Shown here one piece after another: positions 45,581 to 58,112 of a stretch of 64,000 bases of DNA. The DNA is from Deltaproteobacteria bacterium (GTDB taxonomy: Bacteria; Desulfobacterota; Deferrisomatia; Deferrisomatales; BM512): NCBI GenBank assembly GCA_002869015.1, contig PKTT01000003.1, positions 43,073 to 107,072 on the forward strand, in the 5' to 3' direction. The translations under genes and the position numbers were made by a program. A model generated the notes under the pieces. That model made no database searches. It had not been told where the DNA came from and saw nothing but the letters and a program-made list of their open reading frames with translations. How positions within the stretch are numbered: the stretch's first letter is position 1; each line of letters starts with the position of its first letter.

Positions 45581-45616
45581 GCAGCATTCAAGTAGCTATT
45601 AAGAGAAATGAAATAC

Positions 45617-45651
45617 CCCGGACGCGTTCTTTTGCGCGGCGCGCGTCCGGG
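45617..45651 (+). promoter_or_regulatory. GC-rich hairpin between transporter and enzyme genes
   Basis: CCCGGACGCG (45617-45626) and CGCGTCCGGG (45642-45651) pair perfectly over ten bases around a loop of fifteen. No T run follows, so it is not an ordinary terminator. It could stabilise or process the mRNA and so balance transporter and enzyme levels. Confidence 0.55.
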
Positions 45652-45682
45652 CTCTTCACGCCTTAATGCATGGAGGTCCCAA

Positions 45683-46144
45683 TTGTTCGTTGAATTTACA
45701 TTAAATGGCGAAAAGGTCTCAGCCGAGGTCTCCGGCGAGACTACAGCCTTGGCACTTTTGCGGGAAAAGTTCGACCTCACAGGAGCTAAAGAGGGCTGCG
45801 GCGTAGGCGAATGCGGCGCTTGCACCATCCTTGTTGACGGGGTCGCGGTGAATGGATGTCTTTATCTGGCGGGTAAGCTGGATGGGCGCAATGTCTTGAC
45901 CGTGGAGGGTGTAGGGGGCGAGGAGGCGCTCGACCCGCTACAGCAAAAGTTCATGGAGCATGGAGCGGTTCAGTGCGGCTACTGTACGCCAGGGATGCTC
46001 CTCAGCGCCAAGGCGCTCCTCCTAAAGAACCCGAAGCCGACCGTTGACGAGGTAAAGGTGGCGATATCGGGGAACCTCTGCCGCTGCACCGGTTACACAC
46101 CAATAGTCAAGGCGATCCTGGCGGCAACAGGGGAGGGGAAATAA
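45683..46144 (+). CDS. Molybdenum hydroxylase, 2x[2Fe-2S] subunit (nicotinate dehydrogenase-like)
   Basis: The 153-aa electron-transfer subunit of a xanthine-dehydrogenase-family enzyme. Cys39, 44, 47 and 59 (GCGVGECGACTILVDG...C) bind the plant-type cluster. Cys98, 101, 133 and 135 (CGYCTPGM, LCRCTGY) bind the second. The track begins at an ATG at 45608 inside the hairpin; the TTG at 45683 follows GGAGGT at five bases and begins the family N-terminus, FVEFTLNG. The ORF and the following FAD gene overlap as TAATG. In this cluster it would serve ring hydroxylation. Confidence 0.93.
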   Translation: MFVEFTLNGEKVSAEVSGETTALALLREKFDLTGAKEGCGVGECGACTILVDGVAVNGCLYLAGKLDGRNVLTVEGVGGEEALDPLQQKFMEHGAVQCGYCTPGMLLSAKALLLKNPKPTVDEVKVAISGNLCRCTGYTPIVKAILAATGEGK

Positions 46145-46995
46145 TGGCTGATAGGGAATATCTGAGGCCATCTACCCTCGTTGAAGCGGTCGAACTTATG
46201 GCGGCGGCCCCCGGAAGGAGGATCGTCGCGGGTGGCACAGACCTTATGGTTTACATCCGTGAGGGGAAGGAGCGGCCCTCCGCGCTGGTAGACGTTACCG
46301 GCATACCGGAGCTAAATGGGGTACGGAAATTGGATGACGGCGCCCTTGCCGTCGGCGCCGCAATGACCCACTCAATGATAGGGAGCGATCCAGTTATACA
46401 GGCTGTGGCGCCGCTCCTCTCCGATGCCTCTTCCAGCGTCGGCGCGGTGCAGATAAGGAACCTGGCTACAATAGGCGGCAACGTCGTAAACGGCGCCGTT
46501 GCGGCTGATACGCTCTCCGCCCTCGCCGCCTTCGATGCGGCATTTATCACCTACGGGGCCGAGGGTGAAAAGCGCTACACGATAGATGAGTTTTTCCTCT
46601 CCCCCGGCAAGACTGCCGTTGGCGCTGGCGAGATACTGACTAAGATTATACTGCCCCCGCAGCCAAAAGCGGCACACGCCTTCATAAAGGTGGCGAGGCG
46701 CAGGGCGGCGGCGATAAGCCGCCTGGCGGTTTCCGTGATGGCGAATCCCAGCGAAGGGTACGCCCGGATAGCCGTCGGCGCGGTGCTCCCAAAGCCTGGA
46801 CGCATAACCATGGCGGAGGAGGCTTTAATGAATGGCTTTGACCTCTCGGCGGCAAAAGCTGCCGGCGATGCCGCCAAGGCCCACGTTCTCTCCATCTCCG
46901 GGGAACGCCCCTCAATGGTCTATAAGCTCCCCGTGGTCAGCTCGGCGGTGGAAAAGGCGATAATTAAAGCGCTCTCACTAAAGGGGGTGAAGTAA
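46144..46995 (+). CDS. Molybdenum hydroxylase, FAD subunit
   Basis: A 283-aa flavoprotein subunit of the xanthine-dehydrogenase family. IVAGGTDLMVYIREG (residues 28-41) and QIRNLATIGGNVVNG (103-117) are the two FAD-binding motifs, and the C-terminal domain follows from about residue 180. It takes electrons from the iron-sulfur subunit and passes them to an acceptor such as NAD+ or a quinone; which one is not visible. It is translationally coupled on both sides by TAATG overlaps with the small and large subunits. Confidence 0.93.
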   Translation: MADREYLRPSTLVEAVELMAAAPGRRIVAGGTDLMVYIREGKERPSALVDVTGIPELNGVRKLDDGALAVGAAMTHSMIGSDPVIQAVAPLLSDASSSVGAVQIRNLATIGGNVVNGAVAADTLSALAAFDAAFITYGAEGEKRYTIDEFFLSPGKTAVGAGEILTKIILPPQPKAAHAFIKVARRRAAAISRLAVSVMANPSEGYARIAVGAVLPKPGRITMAEEALMNGFDLSAAKAAGDAAKAHVLSISGERPSMVYKLPVVSSAVEKAIIKALSLKGVK

Positions 46996-49241
46996 TGGGT
47001 ACCTTCAATAAAGTGGTGGGCGTTGACGGCGTACGCAGGGACACCGTCGATAAATTGACAGGCAAGGAGCGCTTCTCCGGTGACTACAAAATTCCCGGCG
47101 CGTTGGCGCTTGCAATAGCTCGCTCAAGCGAGGCGCACGCACTGATAAAAAATATCGATTTAACCAAAGCCAAAGCGCTCCCCGGCGTCGTCAGGGTGTT
47201 CACAGCCGAGGATGTGCCCGGTGAAAACAGCTACGGAATCATCCCCATAACCAAGGACCAGCCTATGCTGGCCGCTGGCAAGGTGCGCTTCAAGGGTGAG
47301 GCTGTTGCCCTTGTCGCTGCGGAAAGCCTGGAGGTTGCCCGGGAGGCGGCAGCGCTAATAGAGGTGGAGTATGAGCCTCTTAAGGCGAGCTTCACCCCGG
47401 AGGAGGCGCTGGCTGATGGCGCGGAGGCAATCCACGATAAAGGCAACCTCTGCTTCGAGCATGACTCATTAATGGGCGACCCCGACAAAGCCTTCGCGGA
47501 GGCTGCCGTCATAGTTGAGGATACTTACACCACCAGCGCCATCGAGCACAGCTACATGGAGCCTGAGAGCGGCTTTGCTGTGATGGAGGATGGAGTAGTA
47601 GTGGTGACCGTCTCAACTCAGAATCCCCACTATGACCATGCCGACCTCTGTCGCCTATTGGGGCTTGAGGAAGATAAGGTGCGGGTAAAGCAGGCGACGA
47701 CCGGCGGCGGTTTCGGTGGGAAGCTGGACCTTTCCGTGCACTCCTACGTCGCTTTGGCGACGCTCCTCACAGGACGTCCCTCACGACTTGCCTATACTCG
47801 CGAGGAGTCTTTCGCCGCCAGCGCCAAGCGCCACTCCTTTACCATCAAATACCGCACAGCGGCGGATGCGGAGGGCAACCTCCTTGCCGTGGACGCAGAG
47901 CTTGTCGCCGATACCGGCGCATACGCTTCCTACGGTGTTGCCGTCGCAATGCGCGCAGCGGTGCACGCAGCGGGGCCATACATGGTTCCAAACTCAAGGG
48001 TTTATAGCCGGGCGGTATACACAAACCATGTCTTTAGCGGCGCGATGAGAGGGTTTGGCGTACCCCAGGTGGCCCTCGCCCATGAGAGCCAGATGGAGAA
48101 GATCGCGGCGAAGCTGGGCATGGACCCCATCGAGCTGAGGCTTAAAAACGCCCTGAAACCCGGAGACAAGACGATAACGGGGCAGGTGCTCGGTGATTCG
48201 GTAGGGATACGCGAATGCCTAGAGAAGATAAAAGCCGTCCGTGACGAGTGGGGAGCTGCTAAGGGTGATGACGATGGAGTTCGCGGTATAGGAGTCGGCG
48301 CGATGCTCTACGGCATCGGCAACACCGGCGTCTCCAACCCCTCCACAGCGCAGATCAGGGTTAATAAAGAGGGCGGCGTGACGCTATACACGGGCTGCGC
48401 CGATATAGGGCAGGGGTCCGACCATGTCCTCCTAGGCATCTGCGCGGAGACCCTCGGCCTCGCCCGCGAGGATATAGCGCTGGTGCGCGCAGATACTATG
48501 CTCACCACAAACGCCGGCGCTACAAGCGCCTCCCGCCAGACCTATATCTCAGGCAACGCCGTAAAGGCTGCCGCTGAGATGTTCATCGCAAAGGCGGTGG
48601 AGGCTGCGGCCAAGGTATCTGGGAGCGCCGCCTCCGAGCTCTGCTTTACCGGCACTGCGGTTAAAGGCCCGGATGGTGAGTTGTCACTCCTTGAGATAGC
48701 CGAGTCGCTGAGAGCGGAGGGCAGGGAGCTGGAAGGAGAGGGGTATTTTGACCCGGAGACGGTGCCCCTAGACCACCACACAGGTCAGGGCAAGCCCTAC
48801 TCCACTTATGGTTTTGCAGCCCAGCTTACGCTCGTTCACGTAGACAAAGCCACAGCCGAAGTGAGGGTCGAAAAGCTCTTTGCCGTCCATGATATAGGCA
48901 AAGCGATCTACCCCCAGGGGGTCATCGGCCAGATATCAGGCGGCTCCGCGATGGGCGTTGGCCTTGCCCTCATGGAGGAGTTCGACCACACCTCCGATAA
49001 AAACTTCGATACATACCTGATCCCCACCGTTCTAGACGTACCGGACGTGGAGGCGAGCTTTATCGAGCACGCGGAGCCCACAGGACCATATGGCGCTAAA
49101 GGGGTAGGGGAGCCGGCGCTGATTCCAACCGCACCGGCGATTGTAAACGCAATAGCAGACGCCGTTGGCGTGAGGATCACCTCGCTCCCCGCCAACCTGG
49201 AACGTGTCCATAGCGCACTTCAGTTGATGGGAGGAAAGTAA
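46995..49241 (+). CDS. Molybdenum hydroxylase, molybdopterin subunit
   Basis: The 748-aa catalytic subunit that hydroxylates an N-heteroaromatic ring with water. QATTGGGFGGK (residues 233-243) and GAMRGFGVPQ are the molybdopterin contacts, and Glu706 in GAKGVGEPALIP is the catalytic base. AIEHSYMEPE is the family segment in the middle. In Eubacterium barkeri the nicotinate enzyme has this subunit split in two and contains selenium; here it is one chain, as in most family members. Substrate assignment to nicotinate rests on the enamidase and reductase next to it. No xdhC-like maturation gene is nearby. Confidence 0.92.
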   Translation: MGTFNKVVGVDGVRRDTVDKLTGKERFSGDYKIPGALALAIARSSEAHALIKNIDLTKAKALPGVVRVFTAEDVPGENSYGIIPITKDQPMLAAGKVRFKGEAVALVAAESLEVAREAAALIEVEYEPLKASFTPEEALADGAEAIHDKGNLCFEHDSLMGDPDKAFAEAAVIVEDTYTTSAIEHSYMEPESGFAVMEDGVVVVTVSTQNPHYDHADLCRLLGLEEDKVRVKQATTGGGFGGKLDLSVHSYVALATLLTGRPSRLAYTREESFAASAKRHSFTIKYRTAADAEGNLLAVDAELVADTGAYASYGVAVAMRAAVHAAGPYMVPNSRVYSRAVYTNHVFSGAMRGFGVPQVALAHESQMEKIAAKLGMDPIELRLKNALKPGDKTITGQVLGDSVGIRECLEKIKAVRDEWGAAKGDDDGVRGIGVGAMLYGIGNTGVSNPSTAQIRVNKEGGVTLYTGCADIGQGSDHVLLGICAETLGLAREDIALVRADTMLTTNAGATSASRQTYISGNAVKAAAEMFIAKAVEAAAKVSGSAASELCFTGTAVKGPDGELSLLEIAESLRAEGRELEGEGYFDPETVPLDHHTGQGKPYSTYGFAAQLTLVHVDKATAEVRVEKLFAVHDIGKAIYPQGVIGQISGGSAMGVGLALMEEFDHTSDKNFDTYLIPTVLDVPDVEASFIEHAEPTGPYGAKGVGEPALIPTAPAIVNAIADAVGVRITSLPANLERVHSALQLMGGK

Positions 49242-49242
49242 G

Positions 49243-50397
49243 ATGGCAACCACTAAGATTATTAACATCGGATTGATGCTCTCCGGCGACGTCGAAGCGC
49301 CCATCATAGATGCAGATACCCTCCTCGTGGAGGATGGCGTAATCAAAGCGGTGGGCGCAGAGGCGAATGTCTCCGATGTCGACAAGGTCATAGACGCATG
49401 CGGCTCAGCCCTGACCCCCGGCCTCATGGATTCGCACTGCCACCCGGTCTTGGGCGATTACACACCCCGCCAAAATCAGGTCGGCTTCCTTGAGAGCGCG
49501 GTCCACGGTGGCGTCACCACCTCCATAAGCGCGGGAGAGGTGCACCTCCCCGGCCGCCCCAAAGACCCAGCCGGGGTAAAAGCCCTCGCCATCCTCGCAG
49601 CTAAATCCTTCTCCGCATTCAGGCCGGGCGGGATGAAGGTCATCGGCGGCTCCGTAATCCTTGAGCATGGCCTCGTGGAAGCGGACTTTGAGGAGATGGC
49701 GCTAAATGGCGTCAAGACGGTCGCCGAGATTGGCCTCGGCTCCGTGAAGAGCCCGGAGGACGCCTCCGTTATGGTCAAGTGGGCTAAGAAGAATGGGATG
49801 GTGACCCTCATGCATATGGGCGGCACCTCAATTCCCGGCTCCTCTACGGTAACTGCGGAGATGGTCATTAAGGCCGGCGCGGACGTTGCCTGCCACATAA
49901 ATGGCGGCCCTACGGCGGCGTCCATAGAGGATGTAACCGCCATAATTAGGCAGAGCGACGCGATGATAGAGATTTGTCATTGCGGCAACCCCAAAATGGC
50001 GGCCTACGCCGCGCGTGAAGCGATAAACGCAGGCATGAGCCACCGCGTAATGATAGGTAACGACGCGCCCTCGGGCACCGGCGTTGTCAGCCTCGGCATA
50101 CAGCGGGTAATAGCGCACGTCTCCAGCCTAGCCGATGTGGACCCTGCGGTGGCTACCGCGTGGGCGACGGGCAATACGGCGCGCTGCCACAGCCTCCCCC
50201 AGGGCACCATAAAGGTTGGCGCTCCGGCCGATCTGCTCCTTTGCGATGCGCCGATGGGTTCAGTGGGGAGCGACCTTCTAAGCGCCTACACCGCCGGAGA
50301 TACCCCCGGTGTATCGGTGATCATGATCGACGGCAATGTAGTAGCGGCCAAGAGCCGCAATACGCCTCCCCCAAAGCGGGCGGCTAAGGTCCTTTAA
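49243..50397 (+). CDS. ena: Enamidase (1,4,5,6-tetrahydro-6-oxonicotinate hydrolase)
   Basis: A 384-aa amidohydrolase that, by homology to the E. barkeri enzyme, opens 1,4,5,6-tetrahydro-6-oxonicotinate to 2-formylglutarate and ammonia. The likeness runs over the whole chain, including HLPGRPKDPAGVKALAI, GNDAPSGTG and the very C-terminus KSRNTPPPKRAAKVL. Metal ligands are His65 and His67 (SHCH), His191, His218 and Asp274. Glu162 in AEIGLG is in the place of the bridging glutamate that this subfamily uses instead of a carboxylated lysine. GGGAGG lies before the ATG. This gene is the best single clue to the pathway. Confidence 0.92.
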   Translation: MATTKIINIGLMLSGDVEAPIIDADTLLVEDGVIKAVGAEANVSDVDKVIDACGSALTPGLMDSHCHPVLGDYTPRQNQVGFLESAVHGGVTTSISAGEVHLPGRPKDPAGVKALAILAAKSFSAFRPGGMKVIGGSVILEHGLVEADFEEMALNGVKTVAEIGLGSVKSPEDASVMVKWAKKNGMVTLMHMGGTSIPGSSTVTAEMVIKAGADVACHINGGPTAASIEDVTAIIRQSDAMIEICHCGNPKMAAYAAREAINAGMSHRVMIGNDAPSGTGVVSLGIQRVIAHVSSLADVDPAVATAWATGNTARCHSLPQGTIKVGAPADLLLCDAPMGSVGSDLLSAYTAGDTPGVSVIMIDGNVVAAKSRNTPPPKRAAKVL

Positions 50398-50425: not shown

Positions 50426-51934
50426 ATGAGGATTGATGCCGAGCGCTGCATTGTTTGCGGCAAATGTGTAAAAAATTGTCCCTTGGAGGCAATCTCCATA
50501 GTCGACAAGAAGGTAGTAATCGACGAGGCTATTTGCGTTGATTGCTCCGTGTGCTCCCGCGTCTGCGGTGAGGAGGCGGTGCTCTCGACGGGCCAAGTAG
50601 CAGAAGGGACAATTATCTGCGACTCCTGCCCCGTTGCTTGTTCAATTCCCGAGGGGCTGACAGGCGCATGCCACCGCTACATAAACGAGGGTGGGATGCT
50701 AAAGCGCATGGCAAGGCTTCACACCTTTGAGGACGTCAAAGATATCGTCGGCCCCGATTGGGAGCCGGCGATAAGGGAGCCGATTGTCACCGCAATCGGT
50801 GCGGGGACCACCTACCCGGACTGCAAGCCCGCCCCCGTCATAGTGAGCGGCGTACGTGATGGTGTCGATGTGGTCACCGTAGTCACCGAGGTTCCCCTTA
50901 GCTACAGCGGCGTCAAGGTTAAGATAGACACAGACGTGACCATCGGTGAGGAGGGCGCCGCGGTTTATAGCTCCGGCAGAAAGGTGGGCCACCTTACCAC
51001 CGAGGAGTACGGCTCAAAGATTGTAGCGATCGGCGGCGTAAACACCCTCACCGGAGGCCCCGACGGCTTTACCGCCGCGAGGCTTATGACGGATATCTGT
51101 AATCAAAAGCCCTTCTCCCTAAGGGTAGAGGGCGGCGCAAAGCTTAAACTCTGCGTCGGCAATGCGCCTGTGATAGATGGCAAGGAGATTGGGAAGATGC
51201 GCGTCGGCTGCGGCTCAGCGACAGTGGGCCTCTTCGCGCCCTTCTTCCTCAAGGCCGCTGACGAGGTTGTGGTTCTGGACAGCCACTTGACCGCGCTCTT
51301 CACCGAGCACACCGCAGGCAGGTTTTTGGGAACGACTCCTTCAGGTGTGAAGATCAAGTTCCCCCGCTCGACGCCGGGACGTTACTTCGGAGACCACGGC
51401 TCTGGTTGGGGCGGCACCTCAGTAACTTCCCCGGAGGAGGTCTTTGCCGAAGGCGGGCTCGACGGAGTAAAGGGCGGAACCACTATTCTCATCACTGAGA
51501 CCACCGGCCAAAACGCCGCCCTCTTTGAGGTTGTCGAAGGCGGAGGGGTAAAGGAGATTGAGATAACCCCCAAAGCGAAAGAAGCTGTAAACGCTGTGAG
51601 CGAGTCCTGCCAGCCCAGCCGTGTCTCCGCTTTCTACGCCGGTGGAACGGGCGGCTCCGCCCGCGCCGGAGTGGTCAAGCGCCCAATCAAGATAACGCAG
51701 GCGGTGCACGACATGCGCGCGCGCCTAACCGTTGGCGGCGCGCCCACCTTTCTAATGCCGGGCGGCGGCATAAACTTCTTTGTAGATGTCGAGAAGGTCA
51801 AGAAGGGGTCCTTCACCTGGGTGCCGACCCCCGCGCTCGTCGTGCCGGTAGAGTACACGATGCGCGTTACCGATTACGAGGAAATCGAGGGGCATATAGA
51901 AGCTATGAAGCCGGAGAAAGAGGTTGTCAAGTAG
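50426..51934 (+). CDS. hnr: 6-hydroxynicotinate reductase-like iron-sulfur flavoprotein
   Basis: A 502-aa protein. Two ferredoxin motifs open it, C8IVCGKCVKNCP and C37VDCSVCSRVCG, for two [4Fe-4S] clusters. A further set, Cys65, Cys68, Cys72 and Cys82 (CDSCPVAC...C), could hold a [2Fe-2S]. This count agrees with E. barkeri 6-hydroxynicotinate reductase, reported to have two [4Fe-4S], one [2Fe-2S] and a covalently bound flavin. The remaining 400 residues have no common-fold motif I can name. It would reduce 6-hydroxynicotinate with ferredoxin to the enamidase substrate. It is 28 bases after ena. Confidence 0.85.
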   Translation: MRIDAERCIVCGKCVKNCPLEAISIVDKKVVIDEAICVDCSVCSRVCGEEAVLSTGQVAEGTIICDSCPVACSIPEGLTGACHRYINEGGMLKRMARLHTFEDVKDIVGPDWEPAIREPIVTAIGAGTTYPDCKPAPVIVSGVRDGVDVVTVVTEVPLSYSGVKVKIDTDVTIGEEGAAVYSSGRKVGHLTTEEYGSKIVAIGGVNTLTGGPDGFTAARLMTDICNQKPFSLRVEGGAKLKLCVGNAPVIDGKEIGKMRVGCGSATVGLFAPFFLKAADEVVVLDSHLTALFTEHTAGRFLGTTPSGVKIKFPRSTPGRYFGDHGSGWGGTSVTSPEEVFAEGGLDGVKGGTTILITETTGQNAALFEVVEGGGVKEIEITPKAKEAVNAVSESCQPSRVSAFYAGGTGGSARAGVVKRPIKITQAVHDMRARLTVGGAPTFLMPGGGINFFVDVEKVKKGSFTWVPTPALVVPVEYTMRVTDYEEIEGHIEAMKPEKEVVK

Positions 51935-51937
51935 CTG

Positions 51938-52804
51938 ATGAGCGCCTGGCGCGACGGCGAGGCATTCCTCACAGAGGATGGGACACTCCGCGTGGAGTGG
52001 GGCCCTGTAAGCCTGATGGCTGTCGCTGAGTGGGATAAAAAGAGAGCGCCGGAGAAGCTTAAGAAGGCAGGTGATTACTGCCTTGGAGTTCTCGCGGAGG
52101 TCGCCAGAGATGCGGCGATATTAAAGCAGGATATTAAAAGGATAAAGATCATCGGGGGGCTTTCACCACATTCGGCGCGGATGGTCGAGGTGGCGAAGCT
52201 CTTCCCCGGAAGATTTATAACACCGATGATATCGGTCGCTGGGACTGTCGCCGAGGCTGTTGCCAGAAAATTGTTCGCCCTGGGCGCGGATAGGGTGCTG
52301 GTATCAAATGGTGGCGATGTTGCGCTGGTGCTCCCCTCGGGAGGGGAGGCGAAGGTGGGGTTGGTGGCTCGACTCGGTGATTCAGAGCCCTCCTTTGTGG
52401 TCAACGTAAGGGAGTCCGACCATGTAGGCGGCGTAGCCACCAGTGGCATGGGTGGACGGAGCTTCACCCTTGGAATTGCCGACGCGGTGACGGTTTTTTC
52501 CGGCAGAGCCCCTGTGGCAGATGCGGCAGCGACCCTCATCGCCAACGAGGTCAACGTAAAGAGCGAAGCGATTTTACGGGCGCCGGCATCATCAATAGAG
52601 GCCGGCAGCGACCTCGGCGAGATGATGGTAACCCAAAGGGTGGGAGAGTTAACTCATCTAGAGGTTTCAGAGGCATTGGAGAGAGGGGCTGCCTGTGCAA
52701 GGGAGCTTCTTGACTCCGGTCTAATACTGGGCGCCTTTCTCACCCTTAGGGGGGAGCGGCGCATTGTCGGCTATCCGGGGCCGAATAGAGTTGAAGGGCT
52801 TTAG
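51938..52804 (+). CDS. UPF0280 family protein, ApbE-like fold
   Basis: A 288-aa protein of the UPF0280 family, related to the ApbE flavin transferases. Visible matches to ApbE are VSNGGDVAL (the GGD loop that binds FAD) and the later APVADAAATLIANEV (the acidic, metal-binding ADA-AT loop). ApbE attaches FMN from FAD to a threonine or serine of its target. The gene starts four bases after the reductase gene, whose E. barkeri relative carries a covalent flavin, so a role as the dedicated flavin transferase is proposed. No biochemical role is established for UPF0280. Confidence 0.8.
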   Translation: MSAWRDGEAFLTEDGTLRVEWGPVSLMAVAEWDKKRAPEKLKKAGDYCLGVLAEVARDAAILKQDIKRIKIIGGLSPHSARMVEVAKLFPGRFITPMISVAGTVAEAVARKLFALGADRVLVSNGGDVALVLPSGGEAKVGLVARLGDSEPSFVVNVRESDHVGGVATSGMGGRSFTLGIADAVTVFSGRAPVADAAATLIANEVNVKSEAILRAPASSIEAGSDLGEMMVTQRVGELTHLEVSEALERGAACARELLDSGLILGAFLTLRGERRIVGYPGPNRVEGL

Positions 52805-53481: not shown

Positions 53482-54966
53482 ATGAGCACTGAAATCAAGA
53501 TGAAAAAACACTATGGGATGCTGAAGCTTCTCATAGGCGGCGAATGGGTGGAGTCAAAGTCCACCAAAATCCAGAAGAGCTACAACCCCGTCACCGGGGA
53601 GGAGATAGCGGAGTTCCCCGAGGCGACCAAGGAGGAGGCGCGCGCGGCGGTAGAGGCGGCGCAGAAGGCCTTCCTCGTATGGAAAAACGTGCCCCTGCGC
53701 GAGCGCGCAAGGCTACTCTTTGACCTGCGCGGTTTTCTCGACGCGAATGAGGAGGAGCTTTCACGCATCTTAAGCCAGGACCACGGCCGCACCATCGGCG
53801 AGGCGCGCGGCTCCATACGCCGCTCCATTGAGAACGTCGAGTCAGCCTGTTCCGCAGCTTATCGTCTGGTGCGCGACAACGAGCACCTCGACTCCCTCGC
53901 CAACGGCATCGATCAGACCCTGGTATGGGAGCCCCTTGGCCCCTTCCTCGTCGTGACCCCCGGCAACATCCCGGTTCACGCGTGGTCCTCCTTTGTTCCC
54001 TACGCGCTGGCGACAGGCTGCACAGTTGTCGTAAGCCCCAGCCGTCAGGATCCAGTGGCCGCAGACGCCATCGCTCGCGCCGCCACCGCCGTCGGATTCC
54101 CCCCCGGCTGCATCAACCTCGTACACGGCGGCCGCCACATCAATAAATACATCCTCGACCAGCCCGAGATTCAGGGCGTCGGCTTCATCGGCTCCACCCC
54201 CGCGGGTTGGGACCTCTACAAGCAGTGCGGCGAGCTCGGCAAGGTCTCCTCGCTAAATGGTAACGGCAAGAACAACGTCGTCATCATGGACGACGCCGAC
54301 ATGGACCAGGTCGCGCAGTGGCTCCTTCGTTCCTGCTTCGGCATGGGCGGTCAGCGCTGCCTCGGCTCCGACAACGTTATCTTCGTCGGCGAGCGTTACG
54401 AGGAGCTCAAAGAGAAGTTCGTCGCAGCAGCCAAATCGCTGAAGCTCGGAGACGGCCTTGATGAGTCCACCGGCCTCGGGCCCATGTGCACCCAGGCTGG
54501 CAAGGACAAGGTGATCGACTTTATCGGCCGCGCGCTTGACGAGGGGTGCCAGATGGTGCTTGACGGCAGAAACCCCGTCGTTGAGGGTTGTGAGAATGGC
54601 TACTTCCTCGCGCCTACCATAATGGAGAACGGCAACCCCGACATGGAGACCTCAAAGGAGGAGTCCTTTGGCCCCGTGGCGGTGCTGATGCGCGCCAAGG
54701 ACCTCGATGAGGCCCTCGACTGGATAAACAATAAGACCAATTACGGCCACTCCGCCTGCATCTTCACTGCAAGCGGAAAAGCTGCCCGCAAGTTCTCCAA
54801 GGAGGCGATCGTAGGCAACGTCGGCATCAACGTAGCCGTTCCGCAGCCCTACGCCTTCTTCCCCCTCGGCTCAAAGAGGGAGTCCTTCCTCGGCAGCGCC
54901 AAGAGCAGAATGGCGTCGCTCAGACTCTTCCTCGACGAGAAGACGATTACCTCCCGCTGGGTGTAA
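53482..54966 (+). CDS. Aldehyde dehydrogenase, MmsA-like, possibly CoA-acylating
   Basis: A 494-aa aldehyde dehydrogenase. Cys293 in GMGGQRCLGSD is the nucleophile, and FIGSTPAG (residues 235-242) binds the cofactor. The place of the usual general-base glutamate (ELGG) reads SLNGNGKNN, without Glu, as in methylmalonate-semialdehyde dehydrogenases, which form acyl-CoA. The end, FFPLGSKRESFLG, fits the same branch. In this cluster the substrate may be 2-formylglutarate or, after decarboxylation, glutarate semialdehyde, so that glutaryl-CoA could be made. That is inferred. It is the last gene of the operon, and a terminator follows. Confidence 0.85.
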   Translation: MSTEIKMKKHYGMLKLLIGGEWVESKSTKIQKSYNPVTGEEIAEFPEATKEEARAAVEAAQKAFLVWKNVPLRERARLLFDLRGFLDANEEELSRILSQDHGRTIGEARGSIRRSIENVESACSAAYRLVRDNEHLDSLANGIDQTLVWEPLGPFLVVTPGNIPVHAWSSFVPYALATGCTVVVSPSRQDPVAADAIARAATAVGFPPGCINLVHGGRHINKYILDQPEIQGVGFIGSTPAGWDLYKQCGELGKVSSLNGNGKNNVVIMDDADMDQVAQWLLRSCFGMGGQRCLGSDNVIFVGERYEELKEKFVAAAKSLKLGDGLDESTGLGPMCTQAGKDKVIDFIGRALDEGCQMVLDGRNPVVEGCENGYFLAPTIMENGNPDMETSKEESFGPVAVLMRAKDLDEALDWINNKTNYGHSACIFTASGKAARKFSKEAIVGNVGINVAVPQPYAFFPLGSKRESFLGSAKSRMASLRLFLDEKTITSRWV

Positions 54967-57371: not shown

Positions 57372-58112
57372 TTATTCGTCATCCAACCCCAGGGATATCC
57401 TGAGCTTCTTTACAAATTCTAGGCCGTCTGCCTCAAAGGGGCGGGGCACCCAAGGCATCTCGCGCAGGGTTTTCAGGAGGCCGGGGAGGCGGTCGAAGGG
57501 GACAGCGATAAATTGCCGCCCTTCGGGGAAAAGCTTCCTTCTGCGCATCCCGAAGCCAAAGCCTGTGGTGAAGTAGTTTATCTCCCCTGATAGGTATGGC
57601 TGCGCGAAGAGCCACGCGCATCCTATCGCCGAGGAGTAGCGGCTCATCCACATCTCGCCGCTTTCATAGCTCATAGCTCTTAAGATAATCTCCGCTTGTG
57701 GTATCTCAGCCAGGATTATCAGAATATCGGGTTCGAAGGTTACCTTGCCGAGGGGCGCGAACGCTACGTAATTGAGTACCCCAGGGCTGATTCTGGGGGT
57801 GTAGTGGTAAAGGCGGCTTGCCGCTCTCGGATCTTTGAATACGCCGAGCCCAGCGCCGAATTCTCCGCTGATAAACTGCTCTTCTATCTCCTTTAAACCG
57901 AGGACGTAGGGACCCGCCTCGCAAGTGTGGTTTTCTAGACCGGCATAGAAGACTTCGCCGCCCTGTGCTTTTTTTAGCATCTCGCAAAGGGCGCTCTTCG
58001 TCTCTAAGGCGGGTATATCTTTGGGTGGCTTAGTAAGGTATTTTATCGCAACCGGCTCATATTCAAGCCCAAGCTCCTCCAAAATTTTGAATTCGCCATT
58101 ATCAGAATGCAT
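57372..58112 (-). CDS. DUF169 family protein
   Basis: A 246-aa cytosolic protein. LEYEPVAIKYLTKPP at the start, CEMLKKAQGG, and the closing segment EMPWVPRPF, together with the Cys and His in ENHTCEAGPYVLGL, fit DUF169 (PF02596), found often in methanogens and strict anaerobes. Function is unknown; conserved cysteines suggest metal binding. AGGAG precedes the ATG. It stands alone between the exported-protein genes and the amidotransferase pair. Confidence 0.8.
   Translation of the reverse strand: MHSDNGEFKILEELGLEYEPVAIKYLTKPPKDIPALETKSALCEMLKKAQGGEVFYAGLENHTCEAGPYVLGLKEIEEQFISGEFGAGLGVFKDPRAASRLYHYTPRISPGVLNYVAFAPLGKVTFEPDILIILAEIPQAEIILRAMSYESGEMWMSRYSSAIGCAWLFAQPYLSGEINYFTTGFGFGMRRRKLFPEGRQFIAVPFDRLPGLLKTLREMPWVPRPFEADGLEFVKKLRISLGLDDE

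Follow-up and report, generated by a model that had tools for sequence, protein, structure and literature searches.

In the stretch of DNA analysed here (the window, 64,000 nucleotides of contig PKTT01000003.1 from a Deltaproteobacteria bacterium), the gene for a homologue of 6-hydroxynicotinate reductase (Hnr) is followed directly by a gene of the UPF0280 family, whose product we infer is probably a dedicated flavin transferase of Hnr. We propose this function based on the homology of UPF0280 to ApbE, the retained Ser, Asp and Thr of the ApbE active site, the near-obligate pairing of the two adjacent genes, the existence of a partner-specific UPF0280 clade, the gene order in an E. barkeri-like nicotinate cluster and the dispensability of canonical ApbE.

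Both open reading frames were confirmed on the forward strand, with the Hnr homologue at positions 50426-51934 (502 aa) and the protein of the Hnr-type UPF0280/COG2122 clade, the proposed FAD:protein FMN transferase, at 51938-52804 (288 aa). An earlier note had placed the UPF0280 start four bases past the reductase gene; this holds apart from the style of counting, as three bases (CTG) separate the TAG stop codon (51932-51934) from the ATG at 51938. The surrounding genes form a complete-looking nicotinate operon on the forward strand, encoding, in this order, an XRE-cupin regulator, a TRAP transporter, three subunits of a xanthine-dehydrogenase-family hydroxylase, an enamidase, Hnr, UPF0280, an AA_synth protein and an aldehyde dehydrogenase resembling methylmalonate-semialdehyde dehydrogenase (MMSDH). 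The three subunits, probably those of a nicotinate dehydrogenase, are a 2[2Fe-2S] subunit (45608-46144 by the listed reading frame, whose true start may lie downstream), an FAD subunit (46144-46995) and a molybdopterin subunit (46995-49241). Together with the enamidase (49243-50397), a homologue of E. barkeri Ena (E 1e-132 to 2VUN), these upstream genes support the name Hnr.

Downstream, the AA_synth protein (PF06684; 52861-53439, +) is a recurrent neighbour: about 40 of 80 loci, among them the E. barkeri-type cluster (L054), encode it downstream of the Hnr/UPF0280 pair. The aldehyde dehydrogenase (53482-54966, +), with CoA-acylating methylmalonate-semialdehyde dehydrogenase as its best NCBIfam match at a score below the cut-off of that model, takes the operon place held by hgd, the gene for 2-(hydroxymethyl)glutarate dehydrogenase (Hgd), in the E. 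barkeri-like cluster. It might convert 2-formylglutarate directly to glutaryl-CoA and CO2, which would constitute a different lower nicotinate pathway. A DUF169 (COG2043) protein is encoded on the opposite strand at 57372-58112, outside the nicotinate operon.

The E. barkeri-like cluster was found in a genome (G337) whose enamidase is 97.4% identical to 2VUN and whose Hgd is near-identical to 3CKY. As both are structures of E. barkeri enzymes, the genome belongs to E. barkeri itself or to a very near relative of it, and thereby to the organism group in whose Hnr a covalent flavin was reported (by Alhapel et al. in 2006, for the E. barkeri enzyme). In its nicotinate cluster, UPF0280 is located directly between hnr and hgd. 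The Hnr of the window and that of this cluster are 49% identical over 498 aa, indicating full-length homology, and an enamidase is present in both operons. The window operon differs, however, in having the three-subunit dehydrogenase and the downstream MMSDH-like aldehyde dehydrogenase, and no hgd was seen adjoining it.

Residues 1-52 of Hnr correspond to a 2[4Fe-4S] ferredoxin domain, and an invariant Cys set (C65/C68/C72/C82) likely forms a [2Fe-2S] site. Judged by these ligand sets, Hnr would carry two [4Fe-4S] clusters and one [2Fe-2S] cluster. Although the core of Hnr (residues ~120-495) is confidently predicted (mean pLDDT over the full chain 86.8), only the ferredoxin domain matched a PDB fold with confidence, and the core may therefore represent a new fold. 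Alphaproteobacterial and related Hnr homologues examined (L065-L110) do not have the N-terminal 2[4Fe-4S] ferredoxin domain, and keep the C65/C68/C72/C82 set and UPF0280. As an enamidase is encoded nearby in only about 10 of these loci, many of these homologues may use another substrate.

The second protein was assigned to UPF0280 by NCBIfam model NF003322/PRK04334 (E 7e-70, residues 11-278; 235 bits versus an equivalog cut-off of 290). Foldseek with its AF2 model (pLDDT 94) returned 35 matches at E<=1e-3, exclusively 2o34 (DVU1097, itself a UPF0280 protein) followed by ApbE/Ftp/FmnB structures. A profile comparison (hhalign) with canonical ApbE gave 97.4% at E 1.6e-11 over about 106 columns, in which the NGGD, VATSG and ADAAAT motifs were aligned. 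The window protein scores 15.2 bits (E 0.016) against the Pfam ApbE model (PF02424; cut-off 25.6), and four Hnr-type relatives pass this cut-off (L054 with 32.9, L011 with 30.1, L009 with 27.3 and L047 with 26.4). UPF0280 is thus homologous to ApbE, as the earlier note had supposed from the resemblance of the GGD and ADAAAT loops. The NGGD loop (residues 124-127; 52307-52318, +) aligns with N-x-GGD of ApbE, and the conservation of its GGD across 90 Hnr-type proteins is 95% or more. The same level of at least 95% was found for S169 in the ATSGMGGR loop region (residues 167-174; 52436-52459, +) and for D195 and T199 in ADAAAT (residues 194-199; 52517-52534, +), which align with Vc Ser241, Vc Asp285 and the metal-site Thr of ApbE.

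Catalysis by ApbE involves the conserved Ser241, His257 and Asp285 (PMC12052999). Of these, UPF0280 lacks the His that is proposed as general base (Vc His257), along with the surrounding HIIDPxTG loop, which leaves a 17-residue gap in the alignment; at this position the chain runs straight to G173-R174-S175, with Arg174 being conserved, and no column of the Hnr-type proteins contains His in more than 43%. Another residue would consequently have to act as general base, and the client might supply it, as has been suggested for Lys207 of NqrC (PMC4767422); in Hnr, the lysine K166 is invariant. The loss of this loop also leaves room for other flavin-related roles: UPF0280 could load flavin non-covalently as a chaperone, hydrolyse FAD like Ftp of T. 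pallidum, or act as a stable subunit of the reductase. Some ApbE-family proteins are indeed FAD pyrophosphatases (PMC4767422), and the pairing with Hnr is what would be expected of a subunit. Nevertheless, the Ser, Asp and Thr of the transferase site are all kept. In addition, the flavin of the E. barkeri enzyme is reported to be covalent and this enzyme is not known to have a second subunit, so that we regard these roles as unlikely.

Like ApbE, whose gene is found near the nqr genes, UPF0280 is often encoded beside its presumed client; it differs in forming client-specific clades and in having no evident export signal in its sequence. In this respect it is comparable to the cytosolic ApbE of Klebsiella pneumoniae, which acts on a single soluble reductase, the fumarate reductase, although that enzyme is a canonical ApbE and not a UPF0280 protein (PMC12052999). 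Canonical ApbE itself was considered as the flavinylating enzyme of Hnr, but it is missing from 6/15 of the Hnr-containing relatives of the window genome and from 11/29 further Hnr genomes, and was therefore rejected as a general answer.

The association of the two families was analysed in a sample of 225 alphaproteobacterial genomes, drawn evenly. Hnr and UPF0280 were detected in one and the same set of 34 genomes, and none of the others (0/191) contained UPF0280 (p about 1e-40). In 33 of these 34 genomes the two genes are adjacent, with matched stretches 36-500 bases apart; in the remaining case they lie on separate contigs. Among 59 relatives of the window genome, 15 encode Hnr, all with UPF0280 beside it. 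Over 80 named loci with an Hnr relative, UPF0280 lies downstream on the same strand in about 75. For the exceptions with a searchable whole genome, an Hnr-type UPF0280 was found at another place in that genome; this does not hold for G068, where Hnr is situated at a contig end. Two further cases deviate. A fragmented Clostridia assembly (G438) contains Hnr and only an Hcy-type UPF0280, and for the second Hnr of G033 no UPF0280 partner was reported. In the former (L221:929-3129), the gene following Hnr apparently encodes a transporter and not UPF0280, and an Hnr-type copy was not found in the assembly. No fusion of the two genes was found; a 794-aa open frame of L003 proved to be merely a longer upstream frame and was discarded.

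Overall, the pairing of Hnr and UPF0280 is near-obligate and far beyond chance, which gives the co-occurrence that the earlier note had suggested looking for and, together with adjacency and a partner-specific clade, agrees with its description of UPF0280 as a dedicated partner of the reductase. Our literature search found no paper linking the two families. It is conceivable that UPF0280 flavinylates one of the further redox proteins encoded in the same operon, or that its co-transcription with Hnr is incidental. Both genes are, however, kept together in alphaproteobacterial loci with quite different neighbours, and their pairwise distances correlate (r 0.82, 88 pairs, partly from shared ancestry), making a different client or mere coincidence extremely improbable.

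A partner of UPF0280 that the earlier note does not mention was known before, namely the enzyme HcyBio (DUF39/COG1900) of homocysteine synthesis: the fitness profile of DvMF_0044 correlates with that of DUF39 at r = 0.98 (PMC5764234), and for MA1715 a role in sulfur trafficking was proposed (PMC12068725). Any explanation must therefore cover both partners. Across 391 Clostridia genomes, the set with HcyBio is identical to the set with Hcy-type UPF0280 (50/50), and the Hnr type is confined to two of the three genomes that encode Hnr. The scores of the UPF0280 models are cleanly bimodal, and the phylogenetic tree separates the two types by partner (support 1.0, branch 1.68), with only two misplaced labels, both of them truncated contig-end copies beside Hnr. 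This division in tree, scores and genome sets gives good support to the view that the Hnr-type proteins are dedicated to Hnr. Both types are encoded in the window's genome: the copy next to Hnr is accompanied by another in an operon (L130:258-2652), where it is flanked by HcyBio and a NIL-ferredoxin.

The UPF0280 proteins of homocysteine synthesis (MA1715, DvMF_0044, and DVU1097 with PDB entry 2o34) resemble the Hnr type in family, core motifs and a near-obligate tie to one ferredoxin-linked enzyme. In contrast, they are shorter (about 245 aa versus 270-290 aa), have HcyBio as partner, contain Cys in 71% at the residue preceding TS and show, at the position of Arg (R174) in the Hnr type, His in 73%. 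Short strings common to HcyBio (L111-L140) and Hnr were observed in the same order (VDVVT near the core start, GGG/GGGI near the end). Homology between the Hnr core and HcyBio/DUF39 was rejected, as the hhalign score of 18.0 was matched by 96/200 column-shuffled controls. The two enzymes would have in common that each carries out a two-electron reduction with electrons supplied by a ferredoxin-type system, a setting in which a flavin would be useful.

On the basis of the homocysteine branch, UPF0280 could instead be a sulfur-trafficking or Fe-S accessory protein, as proposed for MA1715, and assist Hnr with its iron-sulfur clusters. A defect at low sulfide has been described for MA1715 mutants, and fitness data connect COG2122 with DUF39 (PMC5764234; PMC12068725); both Hnr and HcyBio are linked to ferredoxin-type clusters. 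The Hnr-type clade, however, has no conserved Cys (the commonest column reaches 26%), so that a persulfide relay would have no anchor there. Furthermore, no sulfur is used in the Hnr reaction, and the fold of UPF0280 is that of flavin transferases only. We thus consider a sulfur-related function of the Hnr-type proteins distinctly unlikely.

With regard to the acceptor residue, the earlier note had pointed to DGFTAA as a partial match to the ApbE target motif. The string is located exactly at Hnr residues 213-218 (51062-51079, +), but its role as flavin acceptor was ruled out because position 216 is poorly conserved, with Thr in only 9/101 homologues compared to Val in 48, Ala in 17 and Ile in 10; the E. 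barkeri-type enzyme has Ala there. The ApbE target motif D-x-x-[ST]-G-A-[ST] does not occur in any of these proteins (0/101 contain [ST]GA[ST]). Four Ser/Thr residues are identical in all 101 Hnr proteins, and by conservation T151, S159, T360 and S411 are the best candidate acceptors. The first two fall within residues 150-162 (VTVVTEVPLSYSG; 50873-50911, +), which constitute a candidate acceptor region on the same grounds. Analogy with a known structure offers no help in locating the site, given the lack of a confident PDB match for the core of Hnr.

An 8-alpha flavin link in Hnr could also form by itself. In this case, the flavin would be self-attached via its isoalloxazine ring and UPF0280 would have an unrelated role in maturation. 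Such autocatalytic linkages are common among covalent flavoenzymes (PMC12052999), and the missing ApbE motif in Hnr fits this possibility. It would leave unexplained, though, why Hnr keeps a near-obligate partnership with a homologue of ApbE, of all families, and we judge self-attachment to be very unlikely.

For the flavin transferase that we favour, we propose a cytosolic, client-specific member of the ApbE superfamily with the Hnr encoded just upstream as its client. FAD and Mg2+ would be bound in the ApbE-like pocket formed by NGGD, S169, D195 and T199, after which UPF0280 would dock on apo-Hnr. FMN would then be moved from FAD onto an invariant Ser or Thr of Hnr as a phosphoester, with release of AMP, and the tethered FMN would receive electrons from the ferredoxin-type clusters and relay them to the ring of 6-hydroxynicotinate. 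Speaking against this proposal are the absent ApbE His and HIIDPxTG loop, the absence of an ApbE target motif from Hnr and the exceptions G438 and G033.

By extension, the sister clade may likewise serve HcyBio. UPF0280 as a whole could then be a general family of cytosolic flavin transferases in anaerobic metabolism with two client-specific branches, HcyBio (DUF39/COG1900) a covalent flavoprotein like Hnr, and the "sulfur trafficking" of MA1715/COG2122 in fact cofactor attachment; we put this wider view forward tentatively, as a possibility that is somewhat more doubtful than probable.

If UPF0280 acts on Hnr as proposed, this would identify the enzyme by which 6-hydroxynicotinate reductase acquires its covalent flavin and would assign a function to the uncharacterised UPF0280/COG2122 family of methanogens, sulfate reducers, clostridia and alphaproteobacteria. 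It would also offer one explanation for the genetic link of UPF0280 to homocysteine synthesis, and would mean that flavin transfer of the ApbE type requires neither the classic target motif nor the catalytic histidine.
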